From NCBI GenBank assembly GCA_012514035.1, contig JAAZBB010000076.1, positions 1 through 64,000 of the forward strand: 64,000 bases of DNA, given 5' to 3'. Shown piece by piece: positions 1 through 62,852 of the stretch; positions within the stretch are counted from its first letter, which is position 1; the number at the start of each line of letters is the position of its first letter. The DNA comes from Lentisphaerota bacterium (GTDB lineage Bacteria; Verrucomicrobiota; Kiritimatiellia; CAIQIC01; Lenti-01). The position numbers were made by a program, and so were the translations under genes. The notes beneath the pieces are model-generated. The model had not been told where the DNA came from. It worked only from the letters and a program-made list of their open reading frames with translations, and did not search any database.

Positions 1-1218
<1,218 letters not shown>

Positions 1219-1390: not shown

Positions 1391-1404
1391 TTTTCCAAAG
1401 AGCA
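1391..1404 (-). promoter_or_regulatory. boxA antitermination element
   Basis: The minus strand reads TGCTCTTTGGAAAA, very close to the bacterial rRNA boxA consensus bound by NusB-NusE (S10). It lies about 170 nt upstream of the 16S 5' end and downstream of both promoters, the expected place for an rRNA antitermination signal. The S10 partner, rpsJ, is also encoded in this window. Confidence 0.8.
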
Positions 1405-4762: not shown

Positions 4763-5293
4763 CTAAGGGGCGGATTCGGACTCCTCGGCCGGCGGGGGTT
4801 CCGTTGCTTCTGCAGCGGGAACCGCTTCGGTTTCCGAAGCGGCGGGAAGGTCATCCGCTGCCGCGGTCGCGGGCACAGGCTCCAGTTCGCCCCCCTCACC
4901 CATTTGCATAACCATGGGGGCCGAGGGTTCAACGATTGGCTCGCCAGCGGGTTCGCCGGCCATCATCGGAGCGGGCTGCATGGGGGCCGGCGCCGGTGCG
5001 GGTGCAGCCGGCATGGCCCGGTCCGCCTTATCCATCACGGATCCGCCGCCGCCATGGCCGCGGGCGAACAGAATACCCAGCACAATGGTGGTCGCCATGA
5101 AGACGGTGGCCAGCGTAATGGTCATGCGGGTCAGCACGTTACCCGCCCGGCTGCCGAACAGGCTTTCGCCCATTCCGCCGCCGAAGGCCATGCCGAGGCC
5201 TTGATCCTTGGACTTCTGCGCCAGAATCACCACGATCAGCAGGAACGCGGTCAGGACTTCGATGATTAAAAGGACGCTGATGAGAATGGACAT
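4763..5293 (-). CDS. secG: Preprotein translocase subunit SecG with long acidic tail
   Basis: SecG is the small accessory subunit of the SecYEG channel. Residues 1-75 match the family: a first membrane helix, the conserved loop with [17 protein letters not shown] and SLFGSRAG, and a second helix ending about residue 74. The remaining 100 residues are a Pro/Ala/Glu-rich, low-complexity tail, making the protein (176 residues) much longer than the usual 70-120. The gene is downstream of tpiA, a common arrangement. ATG start with normal spacing from tpiA. Confidence 0.9.
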
Positions 5294-5329
5294 GGTCGGG
5301 CTGCTCCTGGAAATGGCAAAGTCGTAGGT

Positions 5330-6085
5330 TTAGACCGCGGCGCGGACAATGTCAATGAACGACTTGGCATCGAGGGCGGCCCCGCCGATCAGGCCGCCGT
5401 CGATATCGGGCATGGCAAACAGTTCCCGGGCGTTGGCCGGCTTGACGCTGCCCCCGTACTGGATGCGAACCGCCTGGGCCACGGTGGCATCATACAGGCC
5501 GGTCAGCACCTGGCGGATCAGCGCGTGGACTTCCTGCGCCTGCTCGCTGGAGGCGGTTTTGCCGGTGCCGATGGCCCAGACGGGCTCATAGGCGATCACC
5601 GAGTCCAGCATCTCCTTGGCGGAGAGACCGGCCAGGCTGCCTTGGACCTGGGTGGTGATGACGGCCTCGACCTGACCGGCTTCGCGCTCCTGCAGGGTTT
5701 CGCCCACGCACACGATGGGATGCAGGCTGGAGGCCAGGGCCGCCTGGGCCTTGCGGTTGACGATGGCATCGGTCTCGCCGAAATACTGGCGGCGTTCGCT
5801 GTGGCCCAGGATCACATAGTGGCAATACAACTCCCGCAGCATCCCGGCGCAGATTTCGCCGGTGTAGGCGCCGTTCTTCTCCCAGTGCATGTTCTGCGCG
5901 CCGAGGTCGAGATGCGTACCTTGGATGAGTTCGCTGACCGTGGCCAGGGCGGTGAACGGCGGGCAGACGACCACTTCGACCTCGCGGAAGTTCGCCAAGT
6001 CGGCTTTCAGGGCGGTCACCAAGGTTGCCGCCTCCGCGGTGGTCATATTCATTTTCCAGTTACCGGCTACGATTTTTTTGCGCAT
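5330..6085 (-). CDS. tpiA: Triosephosphate isomerase
   Basis: Interconverts dihydroxyacetone phosphate and glyceraldehyde 3-phosphate in glycolysis. The 251-residue protein has the active-site residues K11 (NWKMN), H95 (GHSERR) and the catalytic Glu in [10 protein letters not shown], plus the phosphate-binding LIGGAAL. The ATG at 6085 is preferred over an upstream one at 6112 because AAAGGA lies at proper spacing and the protein then begins like its family. Third gene of gap-pgk-tpiA-secG. Confidence 0.97.
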
Positions 6086-6126
6086 CTTGAGTCCTTTGCT
6101 TTTTTCCATCACCGCGGCGGCCCGGG

Positions 6127-7371
6127 TTACTTGTCGTTCAGCGCCGCCACTCCGGGCAGTTCCTTGCCTTCGAGAAATTCGAGGCTGGCGCCGCCGCCGG
6201 TGCTGATGTGCGTCATGTGCGCGGCCAGGCCGCTCTGGTTCACGGCGCTGACACTGTCGCCGCCGCCAATGATGCTGGTCGCCCCGCTGGCCGCCACCGC
6301 CTGGCAGACGCCCAGGGTCCCGGCCGCGAACGGCTTCATCTCGAAGCAGCCCATCGGGCCGTTCCAGACGACCGTCTTCGCGCCTTGAATGGCCGCCGCA
6401 TACACCTTGATGGTCTCGGGGCCAATGTCCAGAGCCATCCAGCCGGCGGGAATGTCGTTGCCGACCACCTGGGTGGCGGCCGCCGCATCGAACTTGTCGG
6501 CCGCAATATTGTCCACGGGCAGCAGGAGTTGCCGGCCGTTGGCCTGGGCCTTGGCGATCATCTCGCGGGCGTAGTCGAGCTGGTCAAGCTCGCACAGGGA
6601 ATTGCCGACCTCGTGCCCCTGGGCCTTCAGGAAAGTATAGGCCATGCCGCCGCCGATGATCAGGGTGTCCACCTTGTCCAGCAGGCGGTTCACGACCGCC
6701 AGTTTGTCGCTCACCTTCGCACCGCCGAGAATCGCCACGAACGGACGGTCGGGGTTTTCGACCGCGTTGCCCAGGTACTGGATTTCCTTTTCCATCAGGA
6801 AGCCGGCCACGCACGTGCCGATATACTTGCAGATGACCGCGGTCGAGGCGTGCGCCCGGTGCGCGGAACCAAAGGCATCGTTGACAAAAACATCGCCGTA
6901 GGAGGCCAGCTTCTGCGCCATGGCCTGCTGCTTTTCCTTCAGCGCGGCCTTCTGGTCCTTGTATTCGGCGTCGGTCATCTCGTCGGTCTTCTTGACCTTG
7001 GCCTCTTCCTCTTTGTGGAAGCGGGTGTTCTCCAGCAAAAGGACCTCGCCAGGCTTCAAGGCCGCGACCTCGGCATCCGCTGCGAGGCAGTCGGCGGCAA
7101 AGGCCACCGGCCGGCCGAGCACCTGGGCCAGATGCGCCGCCACGGGCTTGAGGCTGAAGTCCGCCTCGTAGCCCTTGCCTTTGGGCCGGCCCAAATGGCT
7201 CATCAACACGAGGCTCGCACCCTTTTCCAGGACATGCCGGATCGACGGGAGGGCCGCCTGCACCCGGGTATCATCGCTGATGACCCCGCCCTTGATCGGC
7301 ACGTTGAAATCCACGCGCATGATCACGCGCCGGCCGGCCAGTTCCACATCCTTCAGGGTTTTCTTGTCCAT
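6127..7371 (-). CDS. pgk: Phosphoglycerate kinase
   Basis: Transfers phosphate between 1,3-bisphosphoglycerate and ADP. The 414-residue protein carries the N-terminal RVDFNVP substrate motif, the histidine/arginine-rich SHLGRPKG segment, GGAKVSDK of the hinge region and the C-terminal nucleotide-binding GGGDSV. Length is slightly above the usual 390-400 because of a charged insert near residues 120-145 ([17 protein letters not shown]). It lies between gap and tpiA with short gaps, in an obvious glycolytic operon. Confidence 0.97.
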
Positions 7372-7446
7372 GGCTGGGTCTCCTTGCAGACCGATGCGGA
7401 GAGCGGGAAATCGCCGCCCTCCGCATCCGGATTCCGGTTGTCGTCC

Positions 7447-8472
<1,026 letters not shown>

Positions 8473-56583: not shown

Positions 56584-56619
56584 ATTGCGCCTCCTTGCTC
56601 TCTCTTTACAACCGGCCGG

Positions 56620-56967
56620 CTACTTCCGGGACGGCGGCTCGTCCGTCAACGTCACGCGGATATGGCACGTCTTCTTGCGGATCGGCGCAGCCGACCCGCG
56701 CGCGCGCGGCCAGTACCGGGGAATCGTCGGCCCGTTTTCCACGACGGCCCGCGCCACCCAGAGCTTGTCCGCCGACAGCTCGGCATTGTTCTCCGCGTTG
56801 GCAATCGCCGATTTCAGGGTCTTGCCGAGGCAGACCGCTGCCTTGCGTTTGTTCAGTTCCACCACCTGCAGCGCCTCGCCCACGCGCCGGCCCTGGATGG
56901 CCCGCGTCAGGTCCCGCGCCTTGGTCGGCGACAACCGCACATATTTCGATACTGCTCTGATTTCCAT
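56620..56967 (-). CDS. rplV: 50S ribosomal protein L22
   Basis: A 115-residue tunnel-lining protein. AVSKYVRLSPTKARDLTRAI and DKLWVARAVVENGPTIPRYW with the C-terminal ARGSAAPIRKKTCHI loop are family features. Unusually, the preceding gene is not rpsS but an unrelated ORF with a 10-nt gap. Confidence 0.96.
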   Translation of the reverse strand: MEIRAVSKYVRLSPTKARDLTRAIQGRRVGEALQVVELNKRKAAVCLGKTLKSAIANAENNAELSADKLWVARAVVENGPTIPRYWPRARGSAAPIRKKTCHIRVTLTDEPPSRK

Positions 56968-56977
56968 GTCTCGTTCC

Positions 56978-57730
56978 TCAGGGACTTGGCGGCCGGATCA
57001 GCACCGCCCGGTCCCCTGTTTGGGGGTAGTCGCCACGGGCGGTCTCTTCCACCGCCGCGCCGGCAACATTCTCTCTCACATCCACGACGCGAACCCGCGC
57101 CACCCGCCGCCGGTCCCGCAGGACCGTCAACGGCAGCCCGTAGCGCACGCCCTGGCGCGCACCCCGGTCCACGATCACCAGCCCGAGGTCCGCATTCGCA
57201 TCCACGATGCGCGCCTCGACCGGCGCATCCACCGGCGCTTCCGGGGCGGAACCCGCGGCCGACGCCCGCCGGGTCTCGACCACGTCCAGCGCAGCCTGGG
57301 CCTCGGCCAGCGCCTCGCTCAGCTTCCGGATTCGTCGGTCGCGGTCCTCCAGGTCGTGTCGCAACCTGTCGATCTCCTGCGCCAGGCGACCCGTTACCAG
57401 GCGGGATTCTCCCGCCAGCAGGTCCAGCCATTCGTCGTTCTGGCCATCCGCCGCGCCGCCCTCGGCCGCTGCTGCGTGCCCGTCCGTGCGGATGGTGTTT
57501 GCTTCCTCATCCTGCGCGGACTGCACCGAAACCTCGGCCGTCTCCGCCTCAACCAGGGGTTCCGGAACAAGCCCGGCCCCTTCCTCAAGACGCGCCGGCG
57601 CGGACGCCGGCCCGATCATCAAAGAACTGCTCTCCACCGGCCGCCGCGAGCCGAACCACCAGCCCGCCGCCACCGCGGCTCCCAGCACTCCCGCGACGGC
57701 GATCAGCCCGCTTGCGCGCCGGAAACCCAT
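56978..57730 (-). CDS. Unknown membrane-anchored coiled-coil protein inserted in the S10 operon
   Basis: Not recognised. The 250-residue protein has one N-terminal membrane helix (about residues 8-26), an acidic Ala/Glu-rich linker (about 40-100), a coiled coil (about 108-155, LAQEIDRLRHDLEDRDRRIRKL), and a C-terminal beta-rich domain (about 170-250: LGLVIVDRGARQGVRYGLPLTVL and VRVVDVRENVAGA). The C-terminal domain resembles small beta-barrel modules seen in other PVC envelope proteins. The gene lies between rpsS (12 nt gap) and rplV (10 nt gap) in the same direction, so it must be part of the operon. Codon use looks like its neighbours. Possible role: envelope anchoring or regulation near translating ribosomes; no direct evidence. 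Confidence 0.8.
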   Translation of the reverse strand: MGFRRASGLIAVAGVLGAAVAAGWWFGSRRPVESSSLMIGPASAPARLEEGAGLVPEPLVEAETAEVSVQSAQDEEANTIRTDGHAAAAEGGAADGQNDEWLDLLAGESRLVTGRLAQEIDRLRHDLEDRDRRIRKLSEALAEAQAALDVVETRRASAAGSAPEAPVDAPVEARIVDANADLGLVIVDRGARQGVRYGLPLTVLRDRRRVARVRVVDVRENVAGAAVEETARGDYPQTGDRAVLIRPPSP

Positions 57731-57742
57731 CCAACCAAATCT

Positions 57743-58027
57743 CTACTTCAGGGCGACCGTCTTGTCCGTCGCCGCGCCGTGCTTGCGGAAGGTCCGCGTG
57801 GGCGCGAATTCGCCCAGGCGGTGCCCCACCATGTTCTCGGTCACGAACACGCTCGTGAAGACCTTGCCGTTATGGACCGTGAAGGTATGGCCCACAAACT
57901 CCGGCAGGATCATGCTGCGGCGCGACCAGGTCTTGATCGGTCGCTTCGCCCCGCTGGCGCCCAGCGCCTCCACCTTCTTCAGCAGGTGGGCCTCGACATA
58001 GGGACCTTTTTTGATTGAGCGCGTCAT
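57743..58027 (-). CDS. rpsS: 30S ribosomal protein S19
   Basis: A 94-residue protein of the 30S head, beginning [19 protein letters not shown] and containing [19 protein letters not shown]. The ATG at 58027 is 4 nt after rplB. The usual downstream neighbour rplV is displaced by an inserted gene. Confidence 0.97.
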
Positions 58028-58031
58028 GGTA

Positions 58032-58862
58032 CTATTTCTTTCTCCGCTGCACAATGAACTTGCCGGAGGACTTGCGGCCGCTGCGGGTCCGCTTGCCCTT
58101 GGTCAACTGGCCCCAGGGCGTCACCGGGTGCCCGCCACCCGAACTGCGGCCTTCGCCGCCGCCCATGGGGTGGTCCACCGGATTCATCGCCACGCCGCGC
58201 ACCGTGGGGCGAATGCCCTTCCAACGCTTGCGGCCGGCTTTGCCCAGGGAAATGTTTTCGTGTTCAAGGTTGCCCACCTGGCCAATGGTGGCATAACACC
58301 CGGCGTTCAGCTTGCGAATCTCGCCCGAAGGCAGCTTGATGTGGGCATAGGTTTCATCGCGGGCGGCGATGCGCGCCACCATGCCGGCGCTGCGCGCGAG
58401 CTTGGCGCCGCCGCCCGGGATCAGTTCGATGGCGTGAATCGGCATTCCGATGGGAATGGCGGACAGCGGCAAGGCATTGCCATCCACCGGCTCGGCCTGG
58501 GGGCTGGCCAGCAGGCGGACGCCAACCTGCAGTCCGTTCGGCGCCAGGATGTAGCGCTTCTCGCCGTCCGCATACGCCAGCAAGGCCAGGCGGGCCGTGC
58601 GGTTCGGGTCATATTCAATCGCTTGCACCTTCGCCGGAATATCCAGCTTGTCGTGCCGCCTGAAATCCACCAGCCGCAGGAACTTCTTATGTCCGCCGCC
58701 GCGATGGCGAATCGTGATCCGGCCCTGCGAATTGCGTCCGGCCTGGCTCTTCTTGACCCGGCGCAACCGGCGCTCCGGGCGCTTCCGGCTGATTCCTGCA
58801 AAATCCGACAGCGTGGTGAAACGCAGGCTGGCCGTCTTCGGCTTGTATTTTTTCAGGCCCAT
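58032..58862 (-). CDS. rplB: 50S ribosomal protein L2
   Basis: A 276-residue protein of the peptidyl-transferase region. [19 protein letters not shown]-type N-terminus, [15 protein letters not shown] and the C-terminal [20 protein letters not shown] are conserved. Confidence 0.97.
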
Positions 58863-60755: not shown

Positions 60756-62852
60756 TCAACGGTTCCTCAATGCCTGACTCAGATTTTCCGGCACCACTTC
60801 GAACCGGGTCGGCTCCATCGCATACCCGGCGCGTCCACGTGTCAAAGAACGCAATGTCGTGGCGTAGCCGAACAGTTCCGCCAGCGGCACCGACGCCTCG
60901 ATCACCCGCATTCCATCCCGCTGCGCCACGTCTTTCACCTGGCCGCGGCGCATGTTCAGGTCGCCCAGCACGTCGCCCAAATGTTCTTCGGGCGTCATAA
61001 TCTCGAGCGCCATAATCGGCTCGAGCAGGGCCGGACGGGCTGCCTGCGCCGCCTCGCGCAGCGACATCGAAGCCGCCGATCGAAACGCAATTTCCGACGA
61101 ATCGACCGGATGCCATTGGCCATTGACCACCGACACCCGGACGTCGACTAGCGGGAAACTTCCCAGCACACCTGTGCTCAGCCCGTCGCGGATTCCTTCC
61201 TCCACAACAGGCCGAAAATCGTGCGGGATTAAATCAGATGAAACGTGGAAGTCAACACTATTTCCAGCGCCCCGCTCATTTTTTTCCAGGGCCACGCCCA
61301 CCAGCGCAAAATGGCGCTTCCCGCCCAGCTCCCGGTCGAAGGCGAAATCCGCCCCCGCGGCCGCGGTGATCGTCTCGCGGTAGGCCACCATGGGCCGCCC
61401 GGCATTGGCCTGGACCTTGAACTCCCGCAGCATCCGGTCGCGCAGGATTTCCAGATGCAGTTCGCCCATGCCCTGGATGATGGTCTGGCCGGTCTCCACG
61501 TTTTGCCCCACTCGGAACGTGGGATCCTCGTCGGCCAGATCGGCCAGCGCGGCCTGCATTTTTTCCTTGTCCGCCTGGGTCTTGGGCTCGATCGCCATGG
61601 ACACCACCGGCTCCGGAAAAACGATCCGCTCCAGCGCGATGGGCTTCTGCTCCGCGCAGAGCGTGTCGCCTGTGCCCACGCCCTTGATGCCCGCAATCGC
61701 CCCGATTTCACCGGAATAAAGCGTGTCGATTTCCTCCCGCTGATTCGCGTGCAGCCGGATCAAGCGCTGGAGGCGCTCCCGCTTCTGCGTACGCGGATTC
61801 CAGACGTTCATTCCCTTCTTCAATGTGCCCGAATACACCCGCATGAAAATCAATTTGCCCACGAAGGGATCGGTCGCCACCTTGAACGCCAGCGCCGCCA
61901 GCGGCTCGAAATCGCCGGTTGCCCGTTCCAGTTCTTCTTCGGTCTTAGGGTGGCGGCCCTTGATCGGCGGGACGTCCAGCGGCGACGGCAGAAACGCGAC
62001 CACGGCATCCAGCAACGGCTGGATGCCCTGGTTGCGCAAGCTCGTGCCGCACAGCACCGGTACCATCCGGCCGGACACCGTCGCCTGGCGAATGCCCGTC
62101 TGCAAGGCCTCGACCGACAGGTCCCCTTCGTCCAGATACGCGTTCAGCAAGCCTTCGTCGGTCTCGGCCACCGCTTCCAGCAAGGTTTCGCGGGCTTGTT
62201 GCGCCGCAGCCTGCAGCTCGCCGGGAATGTCCTGTTCGCTCATTTGCGCACCCAGCGAGGCCGCATCGAAGGCCCATGCCCTCATCCGGACCAGGTCGAT
62301 CACGCCCCGGAAATGCTCTTCGGCGCCCCAGGGAATCTGGATGGCCACCGCCGGGGCCTGCAGCTTGGCGCGCATTTCCGCCACCACCCGGTCGAACGAA
62401 GCCCCCACCCGGTCCATCTTGTTGACAAAGGCCATGCGGGGCACGCGGTACTTGTTGGCCTGCCGCCAAACGGTTTCCGATTGCGGCTGCACGCCGCCCA
62501 CCGCGCAAAACACTCCCACCGCCCCATCCAACACCCGCAGGGCCCGTTCCACTTCCGCGGTAAAATCCACGTGCCCCGGAGTATCAATGATGTTGATCTG
62601 GTGTTTCTTCCAGAAACAGGTTGTCGCAGCACTGGTGATGGTGATGCCCCGCTCCTGTTCCTGGGCCATCCAATCCATCACCGCCGTGCCGTCGTGCACC
62701 TCCCCCATCTTGTGCACCTTGCCGGTGTAGAACAGAATCCGTTCGGTGGTCGTGGTTTTTCCGGCGTCGATATGGGCAACGATCCCGATGTTCCGGATCG
62801 CGGTCAGCGCGTGTCCGCGCCCCACCGCCTCAATCTTGACCTCCTTTGCCAC
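60756..62852 (-). CDS. fusA: Elongation factor G
   Basis: Ribosomal translocase GTPase of 698 residues. The G domain has [13 protein letters not shown] (about 20-32), the DTPGHVDF G3 motif and NKMD. Domains IV and V ([19 protein letters not shown] and [11 protein letters not shown]) are complete. GTG 62852 is chosen: it gives the family length and lies 44 nt downstream of a promoter. The upstream GTG at 62897 lies within that promoter. The gene is separated from rpsL, rpsG and tuf, which are not in the window. Confidence 0.96.

Follow-up and report, generated by a model that had tools for sequence, protein, structure and literature searches.

An ancestral exported coiled-coil and barrel protein of the Verrucomicrobiota S10 operon, with a boxA-like site in its coding sequence

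Few bacterial operons are as well conserved as the S10 operon. Why, then, would it hold a gene for a membrane protein between rpsS and rplV? This is the arrangement in the DNA analysed here, a 64,000-nucleotide stretch from a Lentisphaerota bacterium (contig JAAZBB010000076.1, positions 1 to 64,000; "the window"), where an earlier note had pointed to an open reading frame, here called X, with gaps of 10-12 nt on either side. Reading the translations by eye, we found the operon order fusA-rpsJ-rplC-rplD-rplW-rplB-rpsS-X-rplV-rpsC-rplP ... rpoA-rplQ, with secY, adk and map at their usual positions; X is the sole gene of the operon that was not recognised as usual there.

57743 to 58027, minus strand: rpsS (S19), the neighbour upstream of X
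56978 to 57730, minus strand: gene X, an exported or anchored coiled-coil and barrel protein of 250 aa (open reading frame, same-place orthologs, selection)
56620 to 56967, minus strand: rplV (L22), the constant neighbour downstream of X

The X frame begins with ATG, runs for 250 codons and is set off by 12 nt on the rpsS side and 10 nt on the rplV side, in the same place as in relatives. A scan of 56600-58100 found no sigma-70-like promoter, in agreement with the claim that X has none of its own. X is very probably co-transcribed with the ribosomal genes, in line with the proposed tie between its expression and ribosomal protein synthesis.

Could X be a one-off insertion or an assembly join, absent from all relatives, as the earlier note had allowed? 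We found X at the rpsS-rplV junction in Kiritimatiellae and, far beyond them, in Verrucomicrobiae. The genomes nearest the window carry it between rpsS and rplV at 45-79% identity; in order- and class-level relatives identity is 30-43%, and the place is the same wherever the locus holds both flanks. Named rpsS loci with X include those of Chthoniobacter/Spartobacteria, Verrucomicrobiaceae and Akkermansiaceae-labelled assemblies, and at the rpsS loci of Omnitrophota, Nitrospirae and Zixibacteria the junction measures only 0-50 nt. Selection was estimated by region: the linker has a dN/dS of 0.95 and the N-terminal segment one of 0.70, against 0.27 for the coiled coil and 0.23 for the C-terminal part. 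The coiled coil and C-terminal domain are under purifying selection. Since X is conserved in place and these domains are under selection, it is not an assembly join, and its conservation at the same locus across relatives likewise rules out a recent insertion. X is confirmed as a real gene.

When 289 genomes from across the phylum were searched with a profile, the 30 best loci all lay at rplV, with rpsS elsewhere in one of them (G037). Where both genes could be placed (130 genomes, counted by hand from the listing), 32 have an insert the size of full X, 11 an insert of ~370-430 nt and 41 a shorter junction, and in 46 rpsS and rplV lie apart. The medium inserts that we inspected encode a short X, consisting of signal peptide and barrel without the coiled coil. 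In the split clusters of Lentisphaeria, an X homolog lies directly before rplV in 28 of the 45 genomes inspected (L173-L217) and heads its operon; X is separated from the rplV-rpsC-rplP that follows by 15 nt in G144 and 23 nt in G062. Because X stays directly upstream of rplV where the cluster is split, we conclude that it goes with rplV, not with rpsS. X is absent from the Methylacidiphilaceae-like family f41, from Limisphaerales and from several Kiritimatiellae. With many clades lacking it, X is not essential to the phylum.

Other junctions are recorded here for their own sake. G150 has an X of 236 aa between rpsS and rplV (L298, 3441..2731, minus strand). Two genomes of ~0.9 Mb (family f45; L281, L282) have rpsS-rplV junctions of 148 and 313 nt without an X-like frame, possibly remnants. 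Four X-less Kiritimatiellae loci (L283, L294, L284, L285) hold inserts of ~90-100 nt with TATAGT or TAGACT boxes; by eye, these resemble internal promoters that would serve the operon from rplV onward in the absence of X.

How old is X? On a tree of rplB plus rpsS from 130 loci, X occurs in Verrucomicrobiae, Opitutae-like genomes (as the short form), Lentisphaeria and Kiritimatiellae, with outgroups lacking it, and its presence implies at least 13 state changes. The simplest reading would be a single gain at the base of the phylum followed by repeated losses; the tree by itself cannot separate gain from loss. Across 44 loci, X-barrel distances track those of four neighbouring ribosomal proteins (Mantel r 0.895; maximum in 2000 permutations, 0.19), which argues for an ancestral gene with many losses and against a recent insertion. 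That X is ancestral to Verrucomicrobiota, where it was never annotated, is well supported.

X also has a widespread family of paralogues in Verrucomicrobiota, alike in architecture (membrane segment, coiled coil) and with a homologous barrel marked by WNFVVLDIG. They differ from X in that their neighbours are not ribosomal protein genes, and in the barrel-domain tree the rplV-linked forms stand apart from most of them, at a weak deep node (70/88). The Lentisphaeria forms and the short forms make starred clades in this tree, and a few paralogues fall on the rplV-linked side. Owing to the weak node and these strays, the case for orthology of Lentisphaeria X draws on position in addition to sequence. 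By the translations read, one paralogue in the window's own genome (G000:C11) lies beside an M23-like peptidase and frr, and Akkermansia-like genomes have two in tandem next to dnaX (loci L233 ~5100-7800 and L234 3984-5623).

What kind of protein does X encode? Its domains map as follows.

57647 to 57724, minus strand: N-terminal signal anchor, residues 3-28, N-in/C-out (AlphaFold helix; family survey of hydropathy and charge)
57254 to 57445, minus strand: coiled coil, residues 96-159 (AlphaFold helix, pLDDT mostly >90; dN/dS 0.27)
57002 to 57217, minus strand: six-stranded MreC/FlgT-type barrel, residues 172-243 (structure model; dN/dS 0.23)

The membrane helix, coiled coil and beta-rich C-terminal domain claimed from the translation all appear in the AlphaFold model, which has a helix at 3-28, then a disordered stretch of low confidence over ~34-95; residues 96-159 form a long helix and 172-243 a confident beta domain. 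The family survey agrees on the N-terminal segment. Of the "acidic linker" also claimed, the linker is there, as the low-confidence stretch, and it is conserved mainly as nucleotides, not as protein. Invariant residues of the barrel are G190, G194, G198, R219, G239 and D240. Each member surveyed has one strong N-terminal hydrophobic segment, usually positive on its N side, the few exceptions having an uncertain start (L022, L213). This signal sequence is common to the full, Lentisphaeria and short forms, and many relatives of X have AxA sites typical of cleavable signal peptides. Export of X is thus well supported by sequence features: the N-in/C-out charge pattern and the signal-peptide look of many relatives would place the coiled coil and barrel outside the cytoplasm. 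In the window's genome X would stay in the inner membrane by its anchor, whereas signal peptidase probably frees it in many relatives. The coiled coil probably makes X a dimer, and the protein may serve as an envelope scaffold.

We wondered if X might belong to a known family. None of 47 orthologs scanned reaches a curated Pfam or NCBIfam cut-off, as the earlier note had expected. Pfam MreC (PF04085) is absent among the matches of these orthologs at E 0.01; NCBIfam MreC matches weakly, in 2-4 members only. FlgT_C (PF16538) also matches weakly, below its gathering score, in 4 of the 47 (best E 1e-3), and is absent for the window's protein. A structure-based search, which the earlier note had proposed for the beta domain, did return MreC and FlgT barrels, at weak scores. 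With full-length X, Foldseek gave MreC and FlgT as the best PDB partners (best E 8e-4); with the isolated domain, FlgT came first (8z5n, 3w1e; E 3.6e-3, TM 0.63 over the query) and MreC after it. Rotary ATPase beta-barrel domains come next in the lists at similar scores; hence the fold of the X barrel is a common one.

X shares with MreC an N-terminal membrane anchor, a coiled coil, which in MreC forms dimers (PMC8804602), and a six-stranded periplasmic barrel. However, X has one such barrel rather than two and does not lie beside mreB. A genuine MreC is encoded next to mreB on a different contig of the window's genome, and this, with the absent Pfam MreC match, rules out that X is MreC. The C-terminal domain of FlgT, from the flagellar H-ring, may be like X in its barrel fold, but X lacks the other FlgT domains, stays below the gathering score and sits among ribosomal genes. 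Another group-specific, unannotated protein, the PVC signature protein CT421.2, is ~53-80 aa long and unrelated to X by length and description (PMC3444138). Our literature search found no report on the X gene or on boxA in Verrucomicrobiota; a transposon (TraDIS) study of Verrucomicrobium spinosum exists, and its main text does not mention the X gene (PMC12283558).

Perhaps, then, the S10 operon once captured the gene of an ordinary envelope protein, X, and has kept it since because its loss would disturb rplV expression, with no functional tie to the ribosome? Such a history is possible, if rather unlikely. The many losses without visible cost fit it, but X keeps rplV beside it when the cluster splits, and Lentisphaeria X leads its operon, where loss should be easy. 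Likewise, the fast evolution of the N-terminal segment and linker and the existence of short forms without the coiled coil would be expected of such a protein, whereas the purifying selection that persists on the barrel and coiled coil would not.

The linker, which evolves fast as protein (dN/dS 0.95), changes little at synonymous sites: pS is 0.19 there versus 0.37-0.45 elsewhere in X. At residues 61-70 the third codon positions change less (0.07) than the first and second (0.12 and 0.16), and the aligned linker DNA shows blocks of constant nucleotides. Constraint at the RNA or nucleotide level is thus well supported. It is drawn from the comparison of relatives, since the fold of the single linker strand is not significant (z -1.18) and the DNA is GC-rich. 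Stops in the other sense frames, in 12 of 12 family sequences checked, rule out an overlapping second frame, and a search of 57380-57800 against Rfam returned nothing up to E 10. Candidate structures are listed below.

57594 to 57611, minus strand: putative conserved linker hairpin GCCGGCG-TCCG-CGCCGGC (read from the alignment)
57516 to 57547, minus strand: RNA element GCGGAGACGGCCG..CGGTGCAGTCCGC with stem, internal loop and apical hairpin (alignment, RNAalifold)
57444 to 57495, minus strand: possible long stem CCATCCGC / GCGGATGG at the end of the linker (alignment reading in the closest relatives only; weak)

The second of these (57547..57516, pattern GCGGAGAC..CCG....CGG..C.GTCCGC) is nearly invariant in 15 aligned sequences of the window's family and occurs once in the genome. 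RNAalifold found one pair changed on both sides, and the apparent covariation in this element is thin. A further helix, CGTCTT/GGAGACG from the MFE fold, was dropped, as in our reading it is broken in relatives.

The RNA site boxA, bound by NusB and S10 (NusE), controls ribosomal gene transcription. A boxA-like site lies inside X, and the earlier note had missed it.

57619 to 57627, minus strand: boxA-like GTTCTTTGA within the X coding sequence, residues 35-38 (identical codons, position scan, window scan)
60842 to 60850, minus strand: second boxA-like GTTCTTTGA, at the 3' end of fusA, ~100 nt before rpsJ (S10/NusE)
1395 to 1403, minus strand: boxA GCTCTTTGG from this genome's own 16S rRNA leader, a comparison reference

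The X site matches the GYTCTTTR core, and the same core is found in rrn leaders of these genomes: 16S leaders carry TGCTCTTTGG (the window's own genome), TGTTCTTTGA (G037), CGTTCTTTGG (G119) and TGCTCTTTAA (G018), the core reading GCTCTTTGG in the window's own genome and GTTCTTTGA in G037. The 16S rRNA in the window (1-1210, minus strand) is incomplete, at the contig end. What sets the X site apart from boxA is its setting, within a coding sequence and in the middle of an operon; NusB-S10 binding to it is a prediction. The codons NGT TCT TTG are identical in X genes of Kiritimatiellae and of Chthoniobacterales-like Verrucomicrobiae; in nine window genes counted, TCT makes up 3.5% of Ser codons (0.035) and TTG 17% of Leu codons (0.17). 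Because these rare codons are invariant across two classes and synonymous divergence in the linker is low, the site is conserved beyond protein constraint.

By our own count from the position scan, in which the sequences are phylogenetically dependent and the core is short, X holds GYTCTTTG at 34 distinct loci: 14 of the 16 belonging to the window's family, 4 in neighbouring families, 14 Chthoniobacterales-like and 2 in family f49. It is nearly absent elsewhere on the sense strand of those loci, and family f57 has it with one mismatch. Over the whole window GYTCTTTGR occurs 4 times against a shuffled mean of 1.4, which is not far above. X has no such site in families f2, f11, f15, f48 and the Akkermansiaceae-like f40, in the Lentisphaeria forms, in the short forms, or in 2 of the 16 genes of the window's family. 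The scanned Lentisphaeria, short and X-less junctions have no exact core, save one L202 match in an unrelated upstream gene, and show only one-mismatch matches in varying places, such as GTTCTTTTAAA in f46. Hence a boxA role cannot be general, given that the Akkermansiaceae-like, Lentisphaeria and short forms do without the site. Of the 11 family genomes picked up by a codon-degenerate pattern, 10 keep the fusA string unchanged, rare codons included; the remaining one and a genome of another family differ, so this second site is clade-limited. Before rpsJ, boxA-driven (NusB/E) autoregulation has been predicted in gamma-proteobacteria (PMC5725501).

A separate RNA precedes rplV in Opitutaceae-like genomes. 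Family f42 has a structured element ~18-52 nt upstream of rplV, CAAAAGGGYAGGG-hairpin-CTRTCGCC-hairpin-GGAATC, with or without a short X (L301-L304, L306-L326; for example L309:1501-1534). In 25 aligned rplV-linked copies its Y:R pair is C-G in 12 and U-A in 13, with 0 mixed, and the covariation score is 0.375 versus 0.138 when shuffled. Out of 194 genomes of the phylum, a covariance model picks out 10, all f42, with a single copy in each. The element has no Rfam match; it is new, and a candidate ribosomal-protein leader.

Might the conserved entity between rpsS and rplV be a regulatory RNA, made of boxA and hairpins, with the protein secondary? We consider this improbable. The nucleotide-level constraint on the linker, the TCT TTG codons invariant across classes and the unrelated covarying RNA at the rplV start in Opitutaceae-like genomes, with or without a short X, all point that way. 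However, many X genes have no boxA-like site, and the barrel is conserved as protein (dN/dS 0.23) also where no boxA is seen. It is extremely improbable that the signal sequence, translated from the middle of a long mRNA, serves to pull the polysome to the translocon and so bring ribosomal-protein synthesis to the membrane: X does sit within a long operon, and the signal sequence is common to its full, Lentisphaeria and short forms, but a tether would not need the conserved barrel, and in Lentisphaeria X is the operon's first gene. The earlier note had suggested a link between ribosome production and the envelope or the SecYEG/SRP system; the link to ribosome production holds up, probably at the RNA level through the boxA-like site, but nothing favours SecYEG/SRP or direct contact with the ribosome.

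From what was computed (the gene, its position and ancestry, the export signal, the fold, the nucleotide constraint and the boxA core) we infer a growth-coupled envelope scaffold, native to the S10 operon since the ancestor, whose mRNA hosts a Nus-factor site; we would give this reading an even chance. The exported protein, a putative dimer through its coiled coil, would serve as an envelope scaffold by displaying an MreC/FlgT-like barrel on the periplasmic side. As its gene is transcribed with the S10 operon, X would be made in step with ribosomes, and we propose that envelope building thereby scales with growth. In several clades the boxA-like site would act just after the signal codons, with hairpins added in the window's family. 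NusB may load there on RNA polymerase together with S10, which the operon itself encodes as rpsJ, and this loading could spare rplV and the essential genes downstream the Rho-dependent polarity that an exported, poorly translation-coupled X frame would bring. The level of S10 could in turn feed back on the operon.

A bolder version, that X is a phylum-wide dual-function gene encoding an exported envelope scaffold in a coding sequence that is also a NusB-S10 control point of the S10 operon, is unlikely and held tentatively. If it were true, free S10 would sense and tune, together, the operon that encodes it and how much of an envelope protein is supplied, a direct growth link from ribosome to envelope in Verrucomicrobiota. 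An exported protein fixed in the S10 operon since the origin of the phylum is unexpected. With a boxA-like site in a ribosomal operon, on the very mRNA that carries rpsJ for S10 (NusE), autoregulation through Nus factors could be tested in bacteria other than Proteobacteria, and X offers a concrete handle on how envelope growth is matched to ribosome production.
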